Of a DNA stretch of 64,000 nucleotides, positions 571-60,935 are shown one piece after another. Positions within the stretch are counted from its first letter, which is position 1; each line of letters opens with the position of its first letter. The position numbers were made by a program, and so were the translations under genes. The notes beneath the pieces are model-generated. The model was given only the letters and a program-made list of their open reading frames with translations, made no database searches and was not told the origin of the DNA. This DNA is from Tetramitus jugosus (lineage: Eukaryota; Heterolobosea; Eutetramitea; Acrasida; Vahlkampfiidae): the NCBI GenBank assembly GCA_937625935.1, contig OW569392.1:124001-188000 (forward strand). The letters are read 5' to 3'.

Positions 571-584
571 CCTTTCTGGCGCGA
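571..584. repeat. Left target-site duplication of R1
   Basis: The 14-bp string cctttctggcgcga at 571-584 is repeated exactly at 3310-3323. The left copy directly abuts the poly(T), which is the poly(A) tail of R1 on the minus strand. The right copy lies 28 bp upstream of tRNA-Ser. This is the expected footprint of target-primed insertion of R1, before R2 separated the two halves. Confidence 0.85.
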
Positions 585-1897
585 TTTTTTTTTTTTTTTT
601 GTTCCATACAACCATGTGTGCTTGCGCAGCAAGCACACGATTGCTCATTTATTGACTTGTTTTGTGAGTGACGACCCGTAGGGCGTCATTCACTCTTCTT
701 CTCTTGTTGTCCCCGACGGTGCATCTACAGGTTGGAATAATCACTCTGGTGAGTGTTTTGGTTGATGCCCTTCATCAAAGAGCGTAACCTTGTAGTAGGA
801 CCGTCGATGGACACAGAGCCATCTGTTGTTTTTTTCTTGTTTTGGGCCTTGTTGCTCATCAGATCACACAGTGTGATCCTAGCACTCCTCTTCTTGTTAT
901 CATTGAGTTGTGGACTCTGAATCTCCTTTTCGGAGTCATCATCCACATCCACAATGACTGGTTCGTCCTCAGTCAAACCATACCTTTTGGGTGCAGCAGC
1001 AAGTGCCAATGCAGCAATTTCCTTCTTCACTCTTGCGAACACTGGAGAAGTGGCATTCACTTGCTCCAGAATATGCCGATTTTCAGCGCTGAGCTGTACA
1101 ACAGGCACTGTTGGTAGTGGTGTTGCACTCCTTTGTTCTTCTGTCTCCATTAGACCAGGAGCAGTTCTTTGTACAACTTCTTGTTCCGGTATCGGAACCG
1201 GTTTGTTGCCCTCTTGACCCTTTGTCTTTGCCAATTCCTTGGTGAGTTCTGTGACCTGTCGACGCAGTGCGTCAACCACCGTCAGCAGCTCCTCGTACAT
1301 CTTCGTCAATCTCTTGTTGACAGCCTTGAGAGGATCATGTGGTCTCTCGACGTATCGAGTGACCGTGGCCTTGACCTTTTGCTCTCCGCTGAGCACTGCT
1401 CGTGCATAGGTTTCATCACCCATGACCACGAAAGCAGTGTCACGCTTCTTGAGCACACTGGCAACCTTCTCAGGTCCCAGTAGCTTCTTGATGTCGTCCA
1501 CTGACATGTTCTTCATGCCATGGACGACCACCTTTCTTGTGCAATCAACACTGCGCTTGGGTGCAGCAGTGCTGTTGCCAATCCTCCTCTGTTTGTTGAA
1601 TAGCTCAACAAACTCATAGATGCGGTCACCCTTGACCGTCACCCATGCAACAAAGCGTTGCTGACCTTTCCTCTTGATGACCTGGACTCGGTTGAGCCAG
1701 TCACCAAACTCCTCTCCTATCTTTCTTGCCAAAGATGACTGAGAGACACCATTACCGTTGCCAGTAATGACGACCTCTCTGTCACTTGGCCTAGAGCCTT
1801 TCCGTGCAGTGGTCCACACTGCATAACGGCTGTTGCCGTATTCCTTCACCAAATTTGTTGAATCACCAGACATGTGATTCCGTTTTTTTCTGGTCTG
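585..1897 (-). mobile_element. R1: poly(A)-tailed ORF1-only retroelement upstream of tRNA-Ser
   Basis: The element runs on the minus strand from about 1897 (5' end, beginning cagaccag) to a poly(A) tail at 585-600. It contains one intact ORF (725-1873). The 3' untranslated part holds two hairpins: arms 616-624/630-638 (gtgtgcttg/caagcacac) and arms 664-673/684-693. The last bases before the poly(A), read on the element strand, are atggttgtat plus a few, and this motif is shared with R2-R4. The 14-bp TSD (571-584, 3310-3323) brackets R1 together with R2. No reverse transcriptase is encoded. Confidence 0.85.
725..1873 (-). CDS. R1 ORF1-like protein (putative RNA-binding, coiled coil)
   Basis: This 382-residue protein starts at an ATG 24 bases inside the R1 5' end. 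It is homologous along its length to the R2 and R3 proteins but clearly diverged. Two alternating strand/helix blocks (about residues 30-95, starting REVVITG, and 110-165, starting KVVVHGMKN) look like RRM-type folds. A helical stretch near 185-220 (KRLTKMYEELLTVVDALRRQV) is a likely coiled coil, and the C-terminus is charged and low in complexity. That layout matches ORF1 proteins of non-LTR retrotransposons, which bind element RNA and oligomerise. The fold assignment is by eye, and no enzymatic motif was seen. Confidence 0.75.
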   Translation of the reverse strand: MSGDSTNLVKEYGNSRYAVWTTARKGSRPSDREVVITGNGNGVSQSSLARKIGEEFGDWLNRVQVIKRKGQQRFVAWVTVKGDRIYEFVELFNKQRRIGNSTAAPKRSVDCTRKVVVHGMKNMSVDDIKKLLGPEKVASVLKKRDTAFVVMGDETYARAVLSGEQKVKATVTRYVERPHDPLKAVNKRLTKMYEELLTVVDALRRQVTELTKELAKTKGQEGNKPVPIPEQEVVQRTAPGLMETEEQRSATPLPTVPVVQLSAENRHILEQVNATSPVFARVKKEIAALALAAAPKRYGLTEDEPVIVDVDDDSEKEIQSPQLNDNKKRSARITLCDLMSNKAQNKKKTTDGSVSIDGPTTRLRSLMKGINQNTHQSDYSNL

Positions 1898-1899
1898 CC
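1886..1899. repeat. Left target-site duplication of R2
   Basis: The string ttttctggtctgcc at 1886-1899 is repeated exactly at 3298-3311. The left copy is the original 5' end of R1 plus two bases of R1's own TSD, followed at once by the R2 poly(T). It shows that R2 inserted across the R1/target junction. A few following T residues could also belong to the duplication. Confidence 0.85.
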
Positions 1900-3297
1900 T
1901 TTTTTTTTTTTTTTTTAATACAACAAATGGTGCTCACGCACCACGTTGCGGAACTTTTATTTTTCTTTTGCGTGAGAGCAGGCTTGCCTGCTCTCAATTG
2001 TCTAACATGATGTGGTGCTTGCCCAGTGGAGTGGCAGGCCTACGCAACAGGATTCATTCTCTTCTTGGAATGTTGTTTTGATCCCTTCTTCAGGGATTCG
2101 TTGCGAGGGCCTCCACTACCATCTGGAGCACCACTGGTGAGGTCAGATGGCTCTGTAGTCCTAGCCAGTTGGTAGGACCTACGGAGAGCACCTGACTTGA
2201 TACTGGCCAACCTGGCCGGGATCTTGTTGGCAGCTGTGTCACCAACGGTGACACGTGCTGATCGCTTCTTGTGTTCGTTAAGTTGGGGACTCTGTAACTC
2301 ACAGTCGGGGTTACTGAGATCCAACTCAACTGGATCTTCATCGGTGGCTGTGCTTCTTGCACGGTCCACCATGATTGCTCGGGCAGCAATCTCTTTCTTG
2401 ACTTTCTTGAACACCTCGGAGGTGTTCAATACTAGCTCGAGGATTGCTCTGTTACGAGCATCCTCATCAATGGTGTTGTTGGTTGGCTCTTGGGTGACCG
2501 TAGTTGGAGTGGCGGGATGGGACTCCGGCATGATCGACTCCCAGTCATCGGTCGTAGACGGAGTCGAAGGTTCGAATTCGGAGATTCGCTCCGGCGTCCT
2601 TGGAGACGGGGATGCGAGGGGAATCCGGTTGACGGAAGCCATATCTTTTAACACACTGACTTGGTGGCGCAGGTCGTCCACCACAGCCAGTAGCTCTTGG
2701 TACATCTTGGTCAGCCTCTTGCTGACAGCCTTGACCGGATCACGTGGGCGTGGAAGGAAGCGCTTTGCTTCCACCTCCACTGGCATGGATTGAACGTTTC
2801 GAAGCAAAGCTTCGGCATACGTTTCGGACTCCATCACAACAAAGGCGGTGTCGTGCTTCTTGAGCACGTTCTTGACCTTTGTTGTGCCAAGCATGGCCTT
2901 GATGTCGTCCTCCGTCTTACCTTTGACACCGTGGAGGACGACCTTCTTGGCACAATCTACATTGTGCTTGAGTGCTGCCTTGCAGCCACTCATCTTCTTG
3001 TTGCGGTTGAAGGATTCAACAAATGGGTAAATGTTGTCATCAACAACAGTTACCCACGCAACAAACCTCTTGGGGCCCTTCTTGATGACTTGGACCCTGG
3101 TGAGCAAATCACCAAAACCCAAGCCAATCTTCTTGGCCAAGGCAGCCTTGGGAGAGTCATCACACTTTCCAGTGATGATGACCTCCTTGCTGCTTGGCGC
3201 AGTTCCTCTTGGTGCTGTGGTCCACACAGCATAGCGTGGATTCTCATACTCACGAACAACAGGGGTGTGTGTTCGTTTTTTCATCGGCGTTTTTTGG
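1900..3297 (-). mobile_element. R2: poly(A)-tailed ORF1-only retroelement nested at the 5' edge of R1
   Basis: The minus-strand element runs from about 3297 (5') to a poly(A) of about 17 bases at 1900-1916. It carries the intact ORF 2040-3284. Its 3' untranslated region has a perfect 10-bp hairpin (gagagcaggc at 1974-1983 with gcctgctctc at 1986-1995) and a GC-rich small hairpin at 1929-1942 next to the tail. It is nearly identical to R3 at 58599-60001. The TSD is 14 bp (1886-1899, 3298-3311), and its tRNA-side edge is 40 bp from tRNA-Ser. Confidence 0.9.
2040..3284 (-). CDS. R2 ORF1-like protein (putative RNA-binding, coiled coil)
   Basis: This intact 414-residue ORF differs from the R3 protein at only a few residues, for example Gly versus Asp in GLGFGDL and Ala-Thr-Asp versus Thr-Thr-Glu in the C-terminal third. 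Block 1 (about 33-95, beginning EVIITGK) and block 2 (about 110-165, beginning KVVLHGVKG) resemble RRM folds. A heptad-like helix follows near 185-215. The middle is Ser/Thr/Pro-rich, and the C-terminus is basic (about 345-414), fitting nucleic-acid binding. By analogy with LINE ORF1p it would coat element RNA and might guide it to the target. I infer that role from layout only. Confidence 0.8.
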   Translation of the reverse strand: MKKRTHTPVVREYENPRYAVWTTAPRGTAPSSKEVIITGKCDDSPKAALAKKIGLGFGDLLTRVQVIKKGPKRFVAWVTVVDDNIYPFVESFNRNKKMSGCKAALKHNVDCAKKVVLHGVKGKTEDDIKAMLGTTKVKNVLKKHDTAFVVMESETYAEALLRNVQSMPVEVEAKRFLPRPRDPVKAVSKRLTKMYQELLAVVDDLRHQVSVLKDMASVNRIPLASPSPRTPERISEFEPSTPSTTDDWESIMPESHPATPTTVTQEPTNNTIDEDARNRAILELVLNTSEVFKKVKKEIAARAIMVDRARSTATDEDPVELDLSNPDCELQSPQLNEHKKRSARVTVGDTAANKIPARLASIKSGALRRSYQLARTTEPSDLTSGAPDGSGGPRNESLKKGSKQHSKKRMNPVA

Positions 3298-3323
3298 TTT
3301 TCTGGTCTGCCTTTCTGGCGCGA
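3298..3323. repeat. Overlapping right target-site duplications of R2 (3298-3311) and R1 (3310-3323)
   Basis: Two exact repeats overlap by two bases here: ttttctggtctgcc (partner at 1886-1899) and cctttctggcgcga (partner at 571-584). The overlap is what is expected if R1 inserted first and R2 then inserted across the R1/target boundary. The segment ends 28 bp before tRNA-Ser. Confidence 0.85.
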
Positions 3324-3351
3324 AAATCAAATAAATCAATTTAAAACATGA

Positions 3352-3434
3352 GCACTCTTGTCCGAGCGGTCAAGGAGCCTGACTAGAAATCAGGTACGGG
3401 AAACCGTGCGTAGGTTCAAATCCTACAGAGTGCG
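3352..3434 (+). tRNA. tRNA-Ser (AGA)
   Basis: The acceptor arms gcactct (3352-3358) and agagtgc (3427-3433) pair perfectly, and a G discriminator follows at 3434. The anticodon stem cctga/tcagg encloses the loop ctagaaa, which gives anticodon AGA for codon TCT. A long variable arm (acgggaaaccgt) identifies a class II tRNA, as expected for serine. The T-arm contains ggttcaaatcc. There is no intron. A TTTT tract shortly downstream can end Pol III transcription. Retroelements R1 and R2 lie immediately upstream. Confidence 0.95.
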
Positions 3435-29225: not shown

Positions 29226-29537
29226 GAGAGATGATAATGGTGTACAAGTTGTTTGTGTATTGTTGAGATATTAGTTGATGGAGTACTTCTGGGGGAATGA
29301 AGAGATTTTGGTGATGGGTTTTGTGATGGTTGTGGAGTCCTGCAGGAAAATGGGAGCAAACAGAAGTCGGAACCAAAAAAGCTAAGAAAGCACGCGGAGA
29401 ATTTTTCAGCTCTTCCACTTCAGAACTGGAAGAGGATTTACGATCAAAATTCGAATACAATTCAAAATCTTGTATCTTTGAGTGTAAAAATTCATATGAA
29501 TTTTGGCTTAGTTGACAACGGATGTCAAAAAGCAAAA
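29226..29537. promoter_or_regulatory. Intergenic region upstream of the RNF213-type gene
   Basis: This 312-bp stretch separates the giant gene from the 5S rRNA gene and must contain the giant gene's promoter. I see no additional gene. It ends in an A-rich run that, on the minus strand, supplies the T residues ending the 5S transcript. Confidence 0.35.
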
Positions 29538-29656
29538 GCCTACATTACTGAGGGTTCTCGAGTAGTCTCCTATCTCAATACTAACTCAGCCAGATGGTGC
29601 TTAACTTCTCTATTCGAAATGGGAAGAGGTGGTTCCACCATTGTATGAACGTAGAC
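29538..29656 (-). rRNA. 5S ribosomal RNA, copy 1
   Basis: The minus-strand 119-nt sequence begins gtctacgttcatac and ends gtaggc, so the two ends pair as the terminal helix of 5S rRNA. It contains the conserved 5S landmarks cccatttcgaat (loop B/C region), gttaagcacc and ggagacta. It is identical base for base to the copy at 31490-31608. T residues just downstream form a Pol III terminator. The 39 bp upstream are also shared with copy 2. Confidence 0.95.
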
Positions 29657-29695
29657 ATCAGATTTCATTTGTCATCCTATTTGCCGCCGGAGGCC
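29538..29695. repeat. Left arm of the 5S inverted repeat
   Basis: These 158 bp (5S gene plus 39 bp of 5' flank ending aggcc) are the reverse complement of 31451-31608, with one mismatch in the flank. The two arms are about 1.75 kb apart and enclose the actin pseudogene. Confidence 0.9.
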
Positions 29696-31450: not shown

Positions 31451-31608
31451 GGCCTCCGGCGGCAAATAGGATGACAAATGGAATCTGATGTCTACGTTCA
31501 TACAATGGTGGAACCACCTCTTCCCATTTCGAATAGAGAAGTTAAGCACCATCTGGCTGAGTTAGTATTGAGATAGGAGACTACTCGAGAACCCTCAGTA
31601 ATGTAGGC
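31451..31608. repeat. Right arm of the 5S inverted repeat
   Basis: Reverse complement of 29538-29695 with one mismatch in the flank. The sharp start at ggcctccggc marks the end of shared sequence. Confidence 0.9.
31490..31608 (+). rRNA. 5S ribosomal RNA, copy 2
   Basis: A 119-nt sequence identical to the minus-strand copy at 29538-29656, from gtctacgttc to gtaggc. A ttttgtgttttc tract downstream ends transcription. The conserved internal promoter region (boxes A to C, about nt 50-97) is intact. Confidence 0.95.
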
Positions 31609-31685
31609 TTTTGTGTTTTCTTGCTCTGCTGTGTGAAGATAAGATCTTTATTTGTATTTTGTAAAATGTTAAGGTATGAATTTCA

Positions 31686-44868: not shown

Positions 44869-45854
44869 ATGACCAAGCGTGCCCTCACATGGTACGATAG
44901 CGATGAAAACAAGGACAATCCGATCAAGAGGAAGAGAAATAATGAAGGTGGTGAATCTGAAATTAGTTCTGCACTCTGTAGAGATGCCTGGTCGAGAATC
45001 ATTGAGTTTTGTAACACTCGAGAATGGTTACAGTTGAGTTACACTTGCAAAGGAATCAACCAATTCAAATTCCTTCGATTGTTCATGTTCAATAAGAAGA
45101 GAACACTCAAACATTCATTGAATGAGAAACAGATTGAGAACTGGTTTCAATTGGGAAGAGGAACGTTGTTTAATGTTGATTTTAACAGGAGTTTTTTTGT
45201 GGTGGATGGGCATTTTCAATACTTGGAGGGTATTTACGCACTCAATATGAGTTATTGTTGGGAAGTCACAGATAATATTCACTCACTTGATTGGCATTCA
45301 CACACTTGATATGAGAGGTTGGAACATCACAGACAGAGCAATTTCGCATTTGACTGGTATTCATACCCTTTCTTTGAGTTTTTGCGATAAGATCACAGAT
45401 GATGCATTCACTCATTTGACTGGTATTCACACACTCTATATGAGTGGTTGCCGGAATGTTACAGACAATGAATTTCGTAATGTAGCTGGCATTCATACAC
45501 TCAATCTGAGTTATTGTACTCAAGTCACAGACAATGCAATTTCTCATTTGAGTGGTGTTCACACCCTTTATTTGAGAAGTTGCCATCGAATCACAGATAA
45601 CGCGTTTCCCTATCTGACTGGTATTCACACTCGATATAAGCGGTCTGCGCAATATCACAGACCAAGCCTTTTCTAGTTTGGTTGGTATTCATACACTGCA
45701 TATGCATGGATGCAATCAAGAATGGATCACAGAGCGTGCGTTTGTTTATTTGAAGGGTATCCATACACTTGCTTGGTCAGAGAGAGATCGAGACCGTGCT
45801 TTCATCGAAAAAGTGGAAAGGTTGTTAAACATTTCAATTTCAGTTCAGAACTGA
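44869..45854 (+). pseudogene. F-box/LRR pseudogene with two frameshifts
   Basis: The first frame (44869-45309) has a nuclear-type basic start, an F-box-like segment (AWSRIIEFCNTREWLQLSYTC in part) and the beginning of a leucine-rich region. The LRR units of about 25 residues (pattern LTGIHTLxLSxCxxITDxAFxH) then continue in the second frame (to 45676) and in a third frame to the stop at 45852-45854. At each change two bases are missing from a predictable codon pair (near 45283 and near 45634). The parental gene would be an F-box/LRR protein of the FBXL type. A related remnant lies at 1-360. Both are next to tRNA/retroelement clusters. Confidence 0.8.
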
Positions 45855-45977
45855 ATGAGAGGTGAGGATTGCACCTCCAATTGTGGAGCATCCATCTATG
45901 ATAAATACTTGTTATTGTATTGTTGTGGGAGTACCGCGAAACGGAATGAGCCACAAAAAATTCAGCAGCAAAAAGTG

Positions 45978-46050
45978 TGGTCGTTGCAGGGATCGAACCT
46001 GCGACCAATGGCTTATTAGACCAACGCTCTACCGACTGAGCTAAACGACC
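45978..46050 (-). tRNA. tRNA-Ile (AAT)
   Basis: On the minus strand, acceptor ggtcgtt pairs with aacgacc. The D-arm is gctcagtcggtagagc, and the anticodon loop ctaataa gives anticodon AAT for ATT codons. The T-arm is gcaggttcgatccctgc, and the discriminator is A at 45978. The anticodon stem (ttggt/gccat) has a T-T at its outer pair and a G-T at the inner pair, a little weaker than usual. T residues downstream form a Pol III terminator. Retroelements R4 and R5 start about 40-55 bp upstream of its 5' end. Confidence 0.93.
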
Positions 46051-46089: not shown

Positions 46090-46106
46090 AATTTTAACGC
46101 AGAAAA
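46090..46106. repeat. Left target-site duplication of R4
   Basis: The 17-bp string aattttaacgcagaaaa occurs here and at 46525-46541. It lies 39 bp upstream of the 5' end of tRNA-Ile. A-runs at both ends make the exact borders uncertain by a few bases. Confidence 0.8.
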
Positions 46107-46396
46107 TGGGTCTTCACAAAGACCAGAGAGTAGACATGTGGTTCGACAACCAACGATGGAGCAACGGCGCATTACTGGTCAATAAGCGGAGGAAAACTAG
46201 CAAGGAATACATGCTTGGCATGTTGGGTATTGAAACAAGGGCGCTGAAACAAGTGATCAAAGGACTGACGAAGAGTGGAATAGAGAAGAAGAAGGCAAGG
46301 GAGAAGGCCCAACAATTTGTCGATCATACAAAGAGGAGATGTGTGGAGGTGATGCGACGCCTCTTCACGAGTTCAAAGGAAATTGCTGGTTGCTAA
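46106..46396 (+). CDS. R4-encoded small basic protein
   Basis: This 96-residue ORF has a composition rich in Lys and Arg. It is predicted to be mostly helical (blocks DMWFDNQRWSNGALLVNKRR, SKEYMLGMLGIETRALKQVI and KKAREKAQQFVDHTKRRCVE). It is unrelated to the R1-R3 protein. A diverged homologue of its central part (VDIWLD, LLVGKAKQKMSKEFLLGM, GVEKEAVDQI) is encoded in the relic R6. Its stop codon lies inside the first hairpin of the element. A nucleic-acid-binding role is a guess from charge and context. Confidence 0.6.
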   Translation: MGLHKDQRVDMWFDNQRWSNGALLVNKRRKTSKEYMLGMLGIETRALKQVIKGLTKSGIEKKKAREKAQQFVDHTKRRCVEVMRRLFTSSKEIAGC

Positions 46397-46524
46397 TGCT
46401 CTACGAGCATTAGCAACTACTTGAATCAATAATGACGGCATACTGCCGTCACGAAACCGATACAGAGAATCAACAAAGAAGTAAAATGAGCAACCAATGG
46501 TTGTATTTAAAAAAAAAAAAAAAA
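46107..46524 (+). mobile_element. R4: short poly(A)-tailed retroelement upstream of tRNA-Ile
   Basis: This element of about 420 bp has one ORF (46106-46396), two strong hairpins and a poly(A) of about 17 bases at 46509-46526. Hairpin 1 has 13-bp perfect arms (gttgctaatgctc at 46389-46401, gagcattagcaac at 46405-46417). Hairpin 2 has 8-bp arms (46433-46440 and 46444-46451). Both have the loop tac. The end before the tail, atgagcaaccaatggttgta, resembles the ends of R1 and R2/R3. The TSD is aattttaacgcagaaaa on both sides. It inserted at the 5' edge of the older R5. Confidence 0.85.
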
Positions 46525-46541
46525 AATTTTAACGCAGAAAA
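46525..46541. repeat. Right target-site duplication of R4
   Basis: Second copy of aattttaacgcagaaaa, directly following the R4 poly(A) and directly preceding the R5 5' end (aacggaatcac). Confidence 0.8.
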
Positions 46542-47109
46542 AACGGAATCACATCTCTGGTGATTCAACAAAATTGGTGAAAGAGTACGGTAACAGCCGT
46601 TATGCAGTGTGGACCACTACACGGAAAGTCTCTGCACCAAGTGACAGAGAGGTCGTCATTACTGGCAACGGTAATGGTGTCTCTCAGTCATCTTTGGCAA
46701 GAAAGATAGGAGAGGAGTTCGGTAACTGGCTCCACCGAGTCCAAGTCATCAAGAGGAAATGCCAGCAACGCTTTGTTGCATGGGTGACGGTCAAGGGTGA
46801 CCGTATCTATCAGTTTGTTGAGTTCTTCAACAAAGAGAGGAGGACTGGCAACAGCACTGCTGCACCCAAGCGCAGTGTTGATTGCACAAGAAAGGTGGTC
46901 GTCCATGGTATGAAGAACATGTCAGTGGACGACATCAAGAAGCTACTGGGGCCTGAGAAGGTTGCCAGTGTGCTCAAGAAGCGTGACACTGCTTTCGTGG
47001 ACAAGTACCACATCATGTTAGACAATTGAGAGCAGGTAAACCTGCTCTCACACAAAAGACAAGTAAAAGTTCTGCAACGTGGTGCGTGAGCACCATTTGT
47101 TGTATTAAA
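46538..47109 (+). mobile_element. R5: internally deleted R1/R2 chimeric retroelement
   Basis: The 5' part (46541 to about 46997) is R1-type at nucleotide level. The 3' part (from about 46998) is the 3' untranslated end of R2/R3, including the hairpin gagagcagg/cctgctctc and gcgtgagcacca. Almost two thirds of the ORF and part of the 3' region are missing. Only four A residues remain of the tail (47107-47110). No downstream TSD was recognised, which fits an older, decayed copy. It lies downstream of R4 in the same orientation. Confidence 0.75.
46553..47029 (+). pseudogene. R5 ORF1-like remnant, start codon lost
   Basis: The position of the R1 ATG is ATC here (46553-46555). The frame then follows the R1 protein closely for about 145 codons (VKEYGNSRYAVWTT, KVVVHGMKNMSVDDIKKLL) to DTAFV, and jumps into R2-type 3' untranslated sequence, ending at a TGA at 47029. 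It would give at most an N-terminal fragment covering the two putative RNA-binding folds. Confidence 0.8.
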
Positions 47110-47163
47110 AGTCTTCTTTTTGGCTAGACACAAGAGACCCGATAGTTTTGGTTTTATTGTCAG

Positions 47164-47768
47164 GTGAGGAGTGGCACCTTGCATACTCTTTCAGTGATGC
47201 AGAGAGGTATTACACAAGTTGTTCCAAGGATCGATGGAGGGAAACGAATAAAGAGGCAACTCACGTTGTTAGGAAAAACAAAAAACAAAACACCAGGTCG
47301 ACATATGGTTAGACCTTTTAGTTGGAAAGGCCAAACAGAAAATGAGCAAAGAGTTCCTCCTAGGTATGATGGGTGTAGAGAAGGAAGCAGTGGATCAAAT
47401 AATGAGGGATGAGGAACACAACAATGAAGCCCTACCATTGTGAGAAGAAGTTAGTTCGAGCTAGGAGCAACAAACAAAGAGGGGAAGTTTTGCAGAAAGC
47501 ACAAAGAGTGGTCGACAGACTGAAGTTGATGAGACTAACTGCTAGGCAGGTTAACAGAGTGGTCAACATGTGTATCACATCGTCACCTACGCCTCGAAAT
47601 TTACTGATTGGACTAGTGTGGAAGGATAAGGTGATTGGTTGTGCTGGTACTCTTCACCATTGCACTCGTCTCAACAACATCGTTCCTCAACACGGCTGTT
47701 CAGAACATGACTTTGTTGCTTCTGGGTTACAACGATAATGACTCTCCGTGTCATCTGCTTCAAAAAAA
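47164..47768 (+). mobile_element. R6: decayed relative of R4
   Basis: Pieces of an R4-like protein can be read (VDIWLD then MSKEFLLGMMGVEKEAVDQI near 47298-47400), broken by frame changes. The following frame to 47738 is basic (KKLVRARSNKQRGEVLQKAQ) and ends shortly before a small hairpin (atgac...gtcat, about 47738-47756) and an A-run at 47762-47768. Orientation is the same as R4 and R5. I read it as the oldest layer of the tRNA-Ile pile. An alternative is a longer, fuller version of the R4 family. Confidence 0.5.
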
Positions 47769-58197: not shown

Positions 58198-58600
58198 ATG
58201 GATATAGAAGATATTCATGACCAGTGTGCTACAGGGTGCAAATACAATGTCCTCAAGAGTATGGTACTAAGCAATGTTGAGGAACGCAACTCCGAGCTTG
58301 AAAAACAAATAATGATAAAAGAGTGTCTCCTCACTCACTTGTCGAGTAGCTTTCGTCAAGTTAAGGACCAACAACTTCTTGAAGAAGAAAAGAGATGACA
58401 AGAGAGAGAAGAGTGGAAGAAGGTGATTCTTGATGAAGCAGTGGCCAGAGAGTGTAAAGACCTTAGAGAAGAAAAAAAGAAATTGCATGAAGAGGTTCAA
58501 AGATTGAACAACAACAAAAAGCTGAACAAAAGATGTCATTCTTTATCGCACCAGGAGCACATGATAGACGTATCATGGGGACGAGTTTCGGAACTGTTTT
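58198..58600 (+). pseudogene. Coiled-coil ORF interrupted by an in-frame TGA, truncated by R3
   Basis: A frame from the ATG at 58198 encodes an acidic/basic helical protein (MDIEDIHDQCATG, ERNSELEKQIMIKEC, QVKDQQLLEEEKR), then meets TGA at 58396-58398. It continues in the same frame with strong coiled-coil character (EREEWKKVILDEAVARECKDL in part). The R3 insertion at 58598 cuts it. I do not recognise the protein. It is probably a decayed gene or part of an older mobile element in the tRNA-Gln pile. Confidence 0.45.
58581..58598. repeat. Left target-site duplication of R3
   Basis: The 18-bp string acgagtttcggaactgtt is repeated exactly at 60002-60019. This copy directly precedes the R3 poly(T). 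Confidence 0.92.
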
Positions 58601-60001
58601 TTTTTTTTTTTTTTTTTAATACAACAAATGGTGCTCACGCACCACGTTGCGGAACTTTTATTTTTCTTTTGCGTGAGAGCAGGCTTGCCTGCTCTCAATT
58701 GTCTAACATGATGTGGTGCTTGCCCAGTGGAGTGGCAGGCCTACGCAACAGGATTCATTCTCTTCTTGGAATGTTGTTTTGATCCCTTCTTCAGGGATTC
58801 GTTGCGAGGGCCTCCACTACCATCTGGAGCACCACTGGTGAGGTCAGATGGCTCCGTAGTCCTAGCCAGTTGGTAGGACCTGCGGAGAGCACCTGACTTG
58901 ATACTGGCCAACCTGGCCGGAATCTTGTTGGCAGCAGTGTCACCAACGGTGACACGTGCTGATCGTTTCTTGTGTTCGTTGAGTTGGGGACTCTGTAACT
59001 CACAGTCGGGGTTACTGAGATCCAACTCAACTGGATCTTCTTCGGTGGTTGTGCTTCTTGCACGGTCCACCATGATTGCTCGGGCAGCAATCTCTTTCTT
59101 GACTTTCTTGAACACCTCGGAGGTGTTCAATACTAGCTCGAGGATTGCTCTGTTACGAGCATCCTCATCAATGGTGTTGTTGGTTGGCTCTTGGGTGACC
59201 GTAGTTGGAGTGGCGGGATGGGACTCCGGCATGATCGACTCCCAATCATCGGTCGTAGACGGAGTCGAAGGTTCGAATTCGGAGATTCGCTCCGGCGTCC
59301 TTGGAGACGGGGATGCGAGGGGAATCCGGTTGACGGAAGCCATATCTTTTAACACACTGACTTGGTGGCGCAGGTCGTCCACCACAGCCAGTAGCTCTTG
59401 GTACATCTTGGTCAGCCTCTTGCTGACAGCCTTGACCGGATCACGTGGGCGTGGAAGGAAGCGCTTTGCTTCCACCTCCACTGGCATGGATTGAACATTC
59501 CGAAGCAAAGCTTCGGCATACGTTTCGGACTCCATCACAACAAAGGCGGTGTCGTGCTTCTTGAGCACGTTCTTGACCTTTGTTGTGCCAAGCATGGCCT
59601 TGATGTCGTCCTCCGTCTTACCTTTGACACCGTGGAGGACGACCTTCTTGGCACAATCTACGTTGTGCTTGAGTGCTGCCTTGCAGCCACTCATCTTCTT
59701 GTTGCGGTTGAAGGATTCAACAAATGGGTAAATGTTGTCATCAACAACAGTTACCCACGCAACAAACCTCTTGGGGCCCTTCTTGATGACTTGGACCCTG
59801 GTGAGCAAATCACCAAAATCCAAGCCAATCTTCTTGGCCAAGGCAGCCTTGGGAGAGTCATCACACTTTCCAGTGATGATGACCTCCTTGCTGCTTGGCG
59901 CAGTTCCTCTTGGCGCTGTGGTCCACACAGCATAGCGTGGATTCTCATACTCACGAACAACAGGGGTGTGTGTTCGTTTTTTCATCGGCGTTTTTAAAAA
60001 T
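58599..60001 (-). mobile_element. R3: full-length poly(A)-tailed ORF1-only retroelement upstream of tRNA-Gln
   Basis: The minus-strand element of about 1.4 kb is nearly identical to R2 over ORF and 3' untranslated region (same 10-bp hairpin gagagcaggc/gcctgctctc near the tail). It has a poly(A) of about 20 bases at 58597-58617 and an exact 18-bp TSD. The 5' end faces tRNA-Gln; the TSD edge is 38 bp from the tRNA 5' end. The close match to R2 and the perfect TSD point to recent mobility. Confidence 0.93.
58741..59985 (-). CDS. R3 ORF1-like protein (putative RNA-binding, coiled coil)
   Basis: An intact 414-residue ORF from the ATG at 59985. A non-ATG extension to 60057 runs through the TSD and toward the tRNA and is not real. 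The protein has the same layout as the R2 protein: two RRM-like blocks (about 33-95 and 110-165), a coiled-coil helix near 185-215, a Ser/Thr/Pro-rich linker and a basic C-terminus. It differs from R2 by only a few substitutions. Both copies keep full frames, which suggests selection on the protein or very recent copying. Confidence 0.82.
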   Translation of the reverse strand: MKKRTHTPVVREYENPRYAVWTTAPRGTAPSSKEVIITGKCDDSPKAALAKKIGLDFGDLLTRVQVIKKGPKRFVAWVTVVDDNIYPFVESFNRNKKMSGCKAALKHNVDCAKKVVLHGVKGKTEDDIKAMLGTTKVKNVLKKHDTAFVVMESETYAEALLRNVQSMPVEVEAKRFLPRPRDPVKAVSKRLTKMYQELLAVVDDLRHQVSVLKDMASVNRIPLASPSPRTPERISEFEPSTPSTTDDWESIMPESHPATPTTVTQEPTNNTIDEDARNRAILELVLNTSEVFKKVKKEIAARAIMVDRARSTTTEEDPVELDLSNPDCELQSPQLNEHKKRSARVTVGDTAANKIPARLASIKSGALRRSYQLARTTEPSDLTSGAPDGSGGPRNESLKKGSKQHSKKRMNPVA

Positions 60002-60019
60002 ACGAGTTTCGGAACTGTT
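60002..60019. repeat. Right target-site duplication of R3
   Basis: Second exact copy of acgagtttcggaactgtt, 38 bp upstream of tRNA-Gln. Confidence 0.92.
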
Positions 60020-60057: not shown

Positions 60058-60128
60058 TCTCCTATGGTCTAGTGGTATGATAGCGGACTTTGAATCCGTT
60101 GACGGTGGTTCGATTCCACCTAGGAGAA
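60058..60128 (+). tRNA. tRNA-Gln (TTG)
   Basis: Acceptor arms tctccta (60058-60064) and tagga-ga (60121-60127) pair perfectly, with A as discriminator. The anticodon stem gcgga/tccgt encloses the loop ctttgaa, giving anticodon TTG for codon CAA, the codon behind most poly-Gln tracts in this window. The T-arm is ggtggttcgattccacc. A run of seven T residues follows at about 60131. No intron. Confidence 0.95.
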
Positions 60129-60935
60129 CTTTTTTTGGGCGTGGGAGAAGTTGTTGTGCACGAGTTTGGCATTGGTCTCAATGAAGGACGGAATCCTTTG
60201 AACGATGTCACAGCTTTCGAGTGCTAAAAAGGATTGACAAGAAGCACAGGGTGTTAAGTAAGCCACTGCAGAGATCAAAAAGAAGCGTACGCGATTCCAT
60301 ATTGACGTGTTCCTCGACGTGCAGAGTATTGTTACGGACGAGCAAGTCGTTTACAAAAATCCAATACTTGGCCTCCTCTAAGCTAATGGCAGAACCAATC
60401 AACAGAAACAAAAGGTAACTCATTTGTGTTTTGTTAGAGCTTGATCTATTTTGTGAGACGGTACTATTCAGCTCATCATTAATATCATTTTAATAGCTGT
60501 GAATGCTGTTCTCTTTTGTCAGTGGTTCTTGGTCGCTCCACCTCCCGTATCCTCAGCACCATCAAGCAACAACCATCTACTCCTTTCTTCTGCTGAGGTT
60601 GTGCCAAAATCGAGAGAAAGATTCGTTAACGTATCGAGGACAAGATCCCAATCGATTCTATGCCGTGTTTGATCCTGTTGTGAGTTGTCGAGGATGTTTT
60701 GCATAGAATGAACTGTGATATGACTGTTATCATAGTGACTCGAAAAACCAATTCTCATCCAACTGGATTTAATCCAGTGAAAAGAATAAGTGTGTCTTTC
60801 AATCGACCTGGTCTGGTGCCAGTTTAGCCAAGATGAAAGAGTGTACTGCGTAGAAGGAGTTGTTACATAGTGTGAGAAGAATAAGAGTTATGTTAAGCAT
60901 AGATTCTTTATACAAGAACATCAAGCAAATGTTGC
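60129..60935. other. Gene-poor stretch, nothing recognised
   Basis: These 807 bp have only short open frames on both strands, none with recognisable protein features. A small minus-strand frame at 60208-60423 has one hydrophobic segment but no support. Composition resembles decayed coding or intergenic sequence. Confidence 0.4.

Follow-up and report, generated by a model that had tools for sequence, protein, structure and literature searches.

LINEs and ORF1-only retroelements occupy a narrow slot upstream of tRNA and 5S rRNA genes in Tetramitus jugosus

We analysed a stretch of 64,000 nucleotides (nt) of Tetramitus jugosus DNA, hereafter the window (assembly GCA_937625935.1, contig OW569392.1, positions 124,001 to 188,000 of the forward strand), for the retroelements that lie beside its tRNA genes. 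ARAGORN found three tRNA genes, and reading of the sequence placed poly(A)-tailed elements upstream of each, as an earlier reading of this DNA (the original prediction) had claimed. The genes, the elements R1 to R4, their open reading frames (ORFs) and their target-site duplications (TSDs) are listed here; because of A runs, element and TSD ends are certain to 1-3 base pairs (bp) only.

3352..3434, plus strand: tRNA-Ser (AGA), from ARAGORN; target gene of R1 and R2
45977..46050, minus strand: tRNA-Ile (AAT), from ARAGORN; target gene of the R4 stack
60058..60129, plus strand: tRNA-Gln (TTG), from ARAGORN; target gene of R3
585..1888, minus strand: R1, ORF1-only element; ORF 725-1873, 382 amino acids (aa); poly(A) 585-600
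571-584 and 3310-3323: TSD copies of R1, by eye; gap of 28 bp to tRNA-Ser
1900..3295, minus strand: R2, ORF1-only element; ORF 2040-3284, 414 aa; leader 3285-3295; poly(A) 1900-1916
1886-1899 and 3298-3311: TSD copies of R2; gap of 40 bp to tRNA-Ser
58600..59995, minus strand: R3, ORF1-only element; ORF 58741-59985
58581-58598 and 60002-60019: TSD copies of R3; gap of 38 bp to tRNA-Gln
46107..46526, plus strand: R4 (R4a), 5'-truncated long interspersed nuclear element (LINE); end of ORF2, 3' untranslated region (UTR) and poly(A)
46090-46106 and 46525-46541: TSD copies of R4; gap of 39 bp to tRNA-Ile
46542..47111, plus strand: R4b, chimaeric ORF1 element stacked behind R4a; join of R1-like and R2-like parts at about 46998-47003
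47290..47560, plus strand: R4c, decayed remnant resembling a LINE ORF2 C-terminus, by eye against ORF2 C-termini

The four gaps from the tRNA 5' end to the nearer copy of the TSD had been given as 28, 40, 38, and 39 bp, and TSD reading shows all of them to be correct; in R1 to R4, the element 5' end also faces the tRNA 5' end, as proposed. The label "ORF1-only" holds for R1, R2, and R3 but fails for R4, which is the 3' end of a LINE: its identity is 93% with the end of L058, an ORF2-bearing locus (256 nt), 98% with L060 (232 nt), and 96% with L050 (160 nt). R2 and R3 are 99% identical, and R2 is inserted at the very start of R1, a member of a distinct family whose ORF1 protein shares 48% identity with that of R2. 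R4c is probably the oldest layer of the tRNA-Ile stack. Two further details of the stacks were seen: R4b combines an R1-like 5' part with an R2-like 3' end, as template switching would give, and another R2-type 3' end (96%) at 439-487, beyond R1, represents a third, older layer at the tRNA-Ser stack.

Across the genome searched (26.35 Mb, 56 contigs), the R2 query gave 57 matches, and 40 of 176 candidates were scored. Among the best 30 R2-type copies, a tRNA gene lies 41-63 bp from the element start in 18; a 5S rRNA gene is the neighbour at L026 and a tRNA-Ile fragment, by eye a relic, at L020. Ten of the 30 sit behind another element's tail, five of these with a tRNA gene 1,384-1,428 bp off and one with a tRNA gene at 351 bp. 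R1-type copies were sampled in rank order, as 20 previously unread copies with a complete N-terminus; LINE-type rows were passed over, as were C13:105233 (beside 5S), C20:181866 and C18:50723 (1.1-1.4 kb upstream of a scored tRNA), and C30:429711 (unclear type, with stops). Seventeen of these 20 abut a gene of the RNA polymerase III (Pol III) class (14 tRNA, 1 clipped tRNA, and 2 5S rRNA) and three lie behind a tail. Their leaders start 34-57 bp from the Pol III gene, with a median of 45 bp.

Full-length LINEs were sought among the reverse transcriptase (RT) rows whose open frame reaches 1,278 aa or more; there are eight of these, and seven were read (C37:212647 was left out). Six of the seven abut a tRNA gene, and the tRNAs at L115 and L118 look intron-containing. 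Truncated LINEs abut tRNA genes at L039, L041, L044, L052, and L056 and a 5S gene at L050, that is, at least six among 30 RT loci. Elements adjoin 5S genes in five cases (L026, L050, C13, L126, and L138), and because 5S genes are targeted as well, what is targeted is Pol III genes as a class, not the sequence of tRNA. The 5S genes themselves (47 scored among 772 candidates) are scattered across many contigs, not arranged in one tandem array. Of the two U6 genes (C13:146367 and C9:55665), neither lies, by eye, near the listed element matches.

TSDs range from 12 to 19 bp. Of the 27 tailed R2-type copies, 19 carry a TSD of 13 bp or more; when mismatched partners were compared (526 comparisons), 0.95% reached 12 bp. 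The information content of 29 TSDs does not exceed 0.53 bit at any of the first 12 positions, and given this lack of a shared motif, the slot is seemingly set by distance, not by sequence. This bears directly on the idea that the endonuclease reads a DNA motif common to tRNA upstream regions. A weak preference for A at the twelfth TSD base, where the 0.53 bit is reached, would suit that idea, but the low content throughout those 12 positions does not (bases outside the TSD were not profiled), and the targets comprise tRNAs for many amino acids as well as 5S rRNA. We regard recognition of a motif as extremely unlikely.

The near edge of the slot lies at 31-44 bp for R2-type elements (12 sites, 10 of them at 36-44 bp) and at 28-32 bp for R1-type elements (5 sites, among them the window, for which the gap of 28 was entered, a value 1 bp smaller than the position taken at the other sites); the difference is significant (p = 0.005). 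Leader starts differ in the same way, with medians of 45 bp for R1 and 54.5 bp for R2 (p = 0.0002). The two slots are therefore offset by about 10 bp, about one helical turn, on few sites. LINE and other tailed copies in the set of 53 tRNA genes described below have near edges at 28, 31, 40, 41, and 43 bp with repeats of at least 12 bp, and 5'-truncated and full copies occupy the same slot. A peak at about 30-55 bp upstream among genome-wide copies had been named as the test of targeting, and one was found, with the near edge of the TSD at 28-44 bp and the element start at 34-63 bp. It might be argued that DNA upstream of Pol III genes is simply nucleosome-free and is nicked without any docking; in the absence of a target motif, any open DNA might serve. 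However, open DNA would not fix orientation, would not create two type-specific slots (28-32 bp for R1 and mostly 36-44 bp for R2, from 5 and 12 sites), and would also admit RNA polymerase II promoters. Such passive access is, in our estimate, improbable.

Insertions at single genes are also layered. At L006 and L009, the R1 TSD overlaps the near copy of the R2 TSD, which indicates that R1 inserted second, between an older R2 and its tRNA. Together with the R2 insertion at the R1 start in the window, these nested layers imply that one gene can be struck repeatedly. We considered whether an R1-R2 tandem might be a single composite element, and this was ruled out by the existence of both orders (R2 nearest the tRNA in the window, R1 nearest at L006 and L009). 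The same observations weigh on segmental duplication, in which a tRNA gene and its element would be copied as one unit. Many tRNA genes are indeed multicopy, but the elements accompany many tRNA types with differing TSDs, 5'-truncated and full copies share the slot, and both stacking orders occur. Duplication is refuted for copies with their own TSD, and its probability as a general account is negligible.

The association was also approached from the gene side. From 1,593 tRNA candidates, the 63 best by Rfam score were taken, a sample and not a census, and 10 of them, on C54 and C56, were left out as probably mitochondrial on the strength of paired identical coordinates, leaving 53. (C54 and C56, with tRNA matches at identical coordinates, are probably two copies of the mitochondrial genome.) The 700 bp upstream of each of the 53 were matched to a library of ORF1 and ORF2. 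For 33 of these nuclear tRNAs, chosen only by tRNA score, ORF1 or ORF2 homology was present, and in all 33 the element is oriented opposite to the tRNA, two of them holding an additional piece in the same orientation. The element starts within 110 bp of the tRNA in 30 of the 33 and at 174, 404, and 408 bp in the other three; the smallest values (8 and 15 bp) probably reflect library frames reading on into the flanks. Cut into 91 pieces of 700 bp, the window gives 11 that match the library, all 11 within the three tRNA-linked blocks (the piece from 46901 is among those matching). Downstream flanks hold an element in 2 of 30 cases, whereas all 37 upstream flanks in this comparison match, although those loci had been fetched for their elements.

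A second gene-side test used coordinates only. It drew on 160 element matches (68 of 73 RT rows and 92 of 95 ORF1 rows), leaving out four second pieces of listed RT loci, three short second ORF1 pieces, and the RT row C25:122046, itself 47 bp from a scored tRNA. Eleven matches fall within 2.5 kb of the 53 tRNAs, all upstream and opposite in orientation and none downstream. Seven of the 160 lie within 120 bp upstream, against 0.039 expected, so that copies are enriched upstream of tRNA genes, as the targeting proposal demanded. Alternatively, insertion could occur everywhere and a gene-dense genome could retain only the copies in harmless sites, such as tRNA upstream regions. The window is in fact gene-dense, with long ORFs. 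Yet selection alone gives no slot at 28-44 bp with TSDs of 12-19 bp and accounts neither for the single orientation at 33 of 33 tRNAs nor for the avoidance of downstream flanks, and slow sorting is unlikely when the identity of R2-type copies to the query reaches 99%. We think survivorship very unlikely.

It is also important to point out what weighs against targeting of Pol III genes. No element was detectable in the 700 bp upstream of 20 of the 53 tRNAs, these tRNAs are a sample, and the background for targeting rests on window pieces and on coordinates. Eight of the 27 tailed R2-type copies gave no clear TSD, and at L068 the best repeat is found at 62 bp, beyond the slot. Four tail-stacked R2-type copies (L011, L015, L018, and L030) were not traced to a Pol III gene, and the seventh full-length LINE, L114, adjoins no recognised one. 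Finally, an ORF1 or RT match lies within 1 kb upstream of just 2 of the 47 scored 5S genes; 5S genes are thus used less than tRNA genes.

No known RNA gene was found in Rfam upstream of L114. A 190-bp stretch upstream of this LINE (L114:1202-1392; C16:364521-364711) contains, by eye, pieces resembling A and B boxes and a T run, and a second copy (85%) lies 9.5 kb away at C16:355014-355203. This stretch is possibly a novel Pol III RNA gene.

The full-length LINEs consist of ORF1 followed by ORF2 in all seven copies read. Copies starting in ORF2 beside tRNAs had suggested a split system with LINEs devoid of ORF1; these copies proved to be 5'-truncated, and the idea was dropped. The ORF2 start overlaps the ORF1 stop as ATGA in four LINEs and as ATGTTGA or ATGTTAG in two, and ORF1 of L113 is interrupted. 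All six scanned ORF2s that include the RT match RVT_1 (E 9.7e-25 to 1.3e-27). In five of seven ORF2 pieces, an endonuclease-reverse transcriptase family (PF14529) matches at about residues 89-195 with E values of 5e-5 to 0.045, all below the Pfam cut-off; the Pfam scan gave no PF14529 in ORF2 of L059 and L049. The sequences GGDHN, SRID, and SDHIP, which we take to be motifs of an apurinic/apyrimidinic endonuclease (APE), are visible in ORF2. Its C-terminus is zinc-finger-like, only below the Pfam cut-off, and the scan of seven ORF2 pieces yielded no RNase H family. These elements show an RT, an endonuclease-like N-terminus, poly(A) with TSDs of variable length in place of long terminal repeats (LTRs) at the copies read, and 5' truncation, the features of an APE-type non-LTR element, or LINE. 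By sequence, the best solved-structure matches of the ORF2 RT are R2 RTs (E 2.8e-14 and 4e-21). A structure of the L1 ORF2 protein exists in the PDB, and no L1 ORF2 protein was among the matches in the two lists.

ORF1 gave no Pfam family above the cut-off. A predicted model places two folds resembling RNA recognition motifs (RRMs) at residues 33-104 and 113-174 and a coiled coil at 182-217, with mostly low confidence from residue 219, and Foldseek returned mostly tandem-RRM proteins for it. The 5' leaders are short. Where an R2-type ATG was found (28 of 30 copies), 6-16 nt separate it from the point where the element match starts; the leader is about 11 nt in the window R2 and about 27 nt in R1. 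In six full-length LINEs, the ATG is about 61-88 bp from the tRNA, which leaves little room for a 5' promoter. With short leaders in R1, R2, and the LINEs, the 5' UTR holds no A-module promoter of the TRE5 type.

Both kinds of element share their ends. The gene-proximal start AAAA(AA)CGC is present in R1, R2, and five of seven LINEs, and a 3' terminal motif (GCAAC, a loop, GTTGTAT, and poly(A)) is common to ORF1-only elements and LINEs in 27 of 32 distinct tails. Beyond the leader motif and about the last 40 nt, R1 and R2 have no DNA likeness to the LINE loci compared here. Judged by these sequences, ORF1-only elements of the R1-R3 type are probably non-autonomous partners of the two-ORF LINEs of the same genome.

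Several observations stand apart from the slot. At L096 (C7:271131-271930), a tRNA-adjacent LINE fragment is inverted, reminiscent of L1 twin-priming inversions. An NCBI contig of 3,118 bp (P0001) encodes a protein about 58% identical to the ORF2 of L059 and L048 over 643 residues, and a related host with the same LINE family is probably present in public data. Weak RVT_1 matches (E about 1e-4, frames of 154-1,273 aa) occur within about 2-9 kb of contig ends, at C1:4436, C3:2089, C17:2337, C48:379851 (of 381,948), C10:606104 (of 612,120), and C9:603492 (of 612,711), which suggests a subtelomeric RT family. Elsewhere in the window, 29527-29695 and 31451-31619 form an inverted repeat of 169 nt (98% complementary, 1,755 nt apart), and repeats at 66-nt spacing at 45327-45638, with frames at 44869-45676, read like leucine-rich repeats.

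Taken together, we observe two-ORF LINEs and ORF1-only partners in a slot about 28-44 bp upstream of tRNA and 5S genes, in opposite orientation, and we think it very probable that they hold this slot by docking on the Pol III initiation complex, the likely contact being TFIIIB. Docking of the LINE protein-RNA complex there would account for the distance, the orientation, the indifference to tRNA type, and the use of 5S genes. At the upstream limit of the Pol III complex, the ORF2 endonuclease would then make nicks about 16 bp apart in the two strands, and target-primed reverse transcription would begin from the nick. The contact could be provided by ORF1, with its predicted RRM-like folds and coiled coil, or by ORF2. 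The LINE ORF2 protein would copy ORF1-only elements in trans after recognising them by the common motif GCAAC...GTTGTAT-poly(A).

Since their leader is nearly absent, the elements may rely on transcription that comes from the side of the tRNA. A bolder proposal, which we advance tentatively as possible rather than probable, is that a Pol III-targeting LINE system arose outside the dictyostelids, that its targeting serves at the same time to capture a promoter, with divergent transcription of the host Pol III gene put to use, and that two faces of the complex, at 28-32 and 36-44 bp and so one DNA turn apart, let several families share and re-use one tRNA gene. With leaders of only 11-27 nt, the elements would live on that divergent transcription.

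Targeting of tRNA genes after the manner of Dictyostelium TRE5 had been proposed for this locus, and the genome-wide distance peak and opposite orientation support the parallel. TRE5 elements are found in opposite orientation 40-54 bp upstream of tRNA genes and, at 5S genes, 37-41 bp upstream; their ORF1 binds TFIIIB (PMC5911963). For TRE5-A.1 of Dictyostelium discoideum, 80.2% of marked insertions fall at 47 +/- 3 bp, and TRE5-A.2, which lacks ORF2 and keeps ORF1, shows the same insertion behaviour and is mobilised in trans (PMC5391098). Among the retrotransposons of dictyostelids, targeting of tRNA genes evolved no fewer than six times (PMC5006619).

The T. jugosus elements might instead belong to the TRE lineage itself, whether inherited or acquired by horizontal transfer, and not be a separate invention. 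The shared plan speaks for this: two ORFs, the order endonuclease-RT-zinc finger, poly(A), an ORF1-only partner, the slot, the orientation, and the use of 5S genes. Against it, of 197 RT relatives 120 were listed and none of these bears the name of a dictyostelid, although most are nameless and the search needs shared words; ORF2 begins at the ORF1 stop (ATGA) here, whereas a -1 frameshift is described for TRE5-A; and TRE ORF1 proteins are reported to lack similarity to each other or to L1 ORF1 (PMC5006619). We consider common lineage rather unlikely, and independence from the dictyostelid elements likely.

If so, this would be a second, probably independent, LINE lineage aiming at Pol III genes; the literature searched, in which most subscription papers were beyond reach, describes LINEs aimed at tRNA upstream regions in dictyostelids and in no other hosts. 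It would let the essential traits of TRE5 (slot, orientation, ORF1 contact, and ORF1-only partner) be told from dispensable ones (the 5' promoter module and the frameshift). The layers at single genes can be put in order from the paired slots and nested TSDs, and the targeting rule can be tested directly in a genome of 26 Mb that holds many nearly identical copies. Targeting that is position-specific and motif-free is also of practical interest for harmless gene delivery.

Among known systems, the LTR elements Ty3, Tj1, and DGLT-A likewise target Pol III genes, Ty3 through TFIIIB, but they carry an integrase and insert at or near the transcription start. NLTR-B of Polysphondylium pallidum is closer, being a non-LTR element that inserts 39-64 bp upstream of tRNA genes; however, NLTR-A and NLTR-B have RNase H after the RT, and no such family was detected in the ORF2 pieces scanned here. 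TRE5 (TRE5-A.1) shares the whole plan of a two-ORF APE-RT-zinc finger LINE with poly(A), set in opposite orientation upstream of tRNA and 5S genes. It differs in the A-module promoter of TRE5-A, where the leader here is near-absent (about 11 nt in R2 and 27 nt in R1), and in its frameshift, where the ORF2 ATG here overlaps the ORF1 stop; the RRM-like ORF1 model and the two slots about one helical turn apart also set the present elements apart from TRE5. Nor does the host resemble a dictyostelid, none being named in the 120 matches listed for its RACK1 or TTLL12 protein. TTLL12 gave no named match that is close; for RACK1, behind the query itself and proteins without a name, the best named match with comparable identity comes from Acrasis kona (72%), a Hibiscus-labelled protein with more bits but 59% identity having been distrusted, which makes a heterolobosean or another discoban host likely. 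R1 and R2 resemble TRE5-A.2 in keeping ORF1 and having no ORF2, but they are two distinct and numerous families sharing only about the last 40 nt and the leader motif with the LINE loci. On this analysis, the LINEs and their ORF1-only partners appear to work as TRE5 and TRE5-A.2 do.

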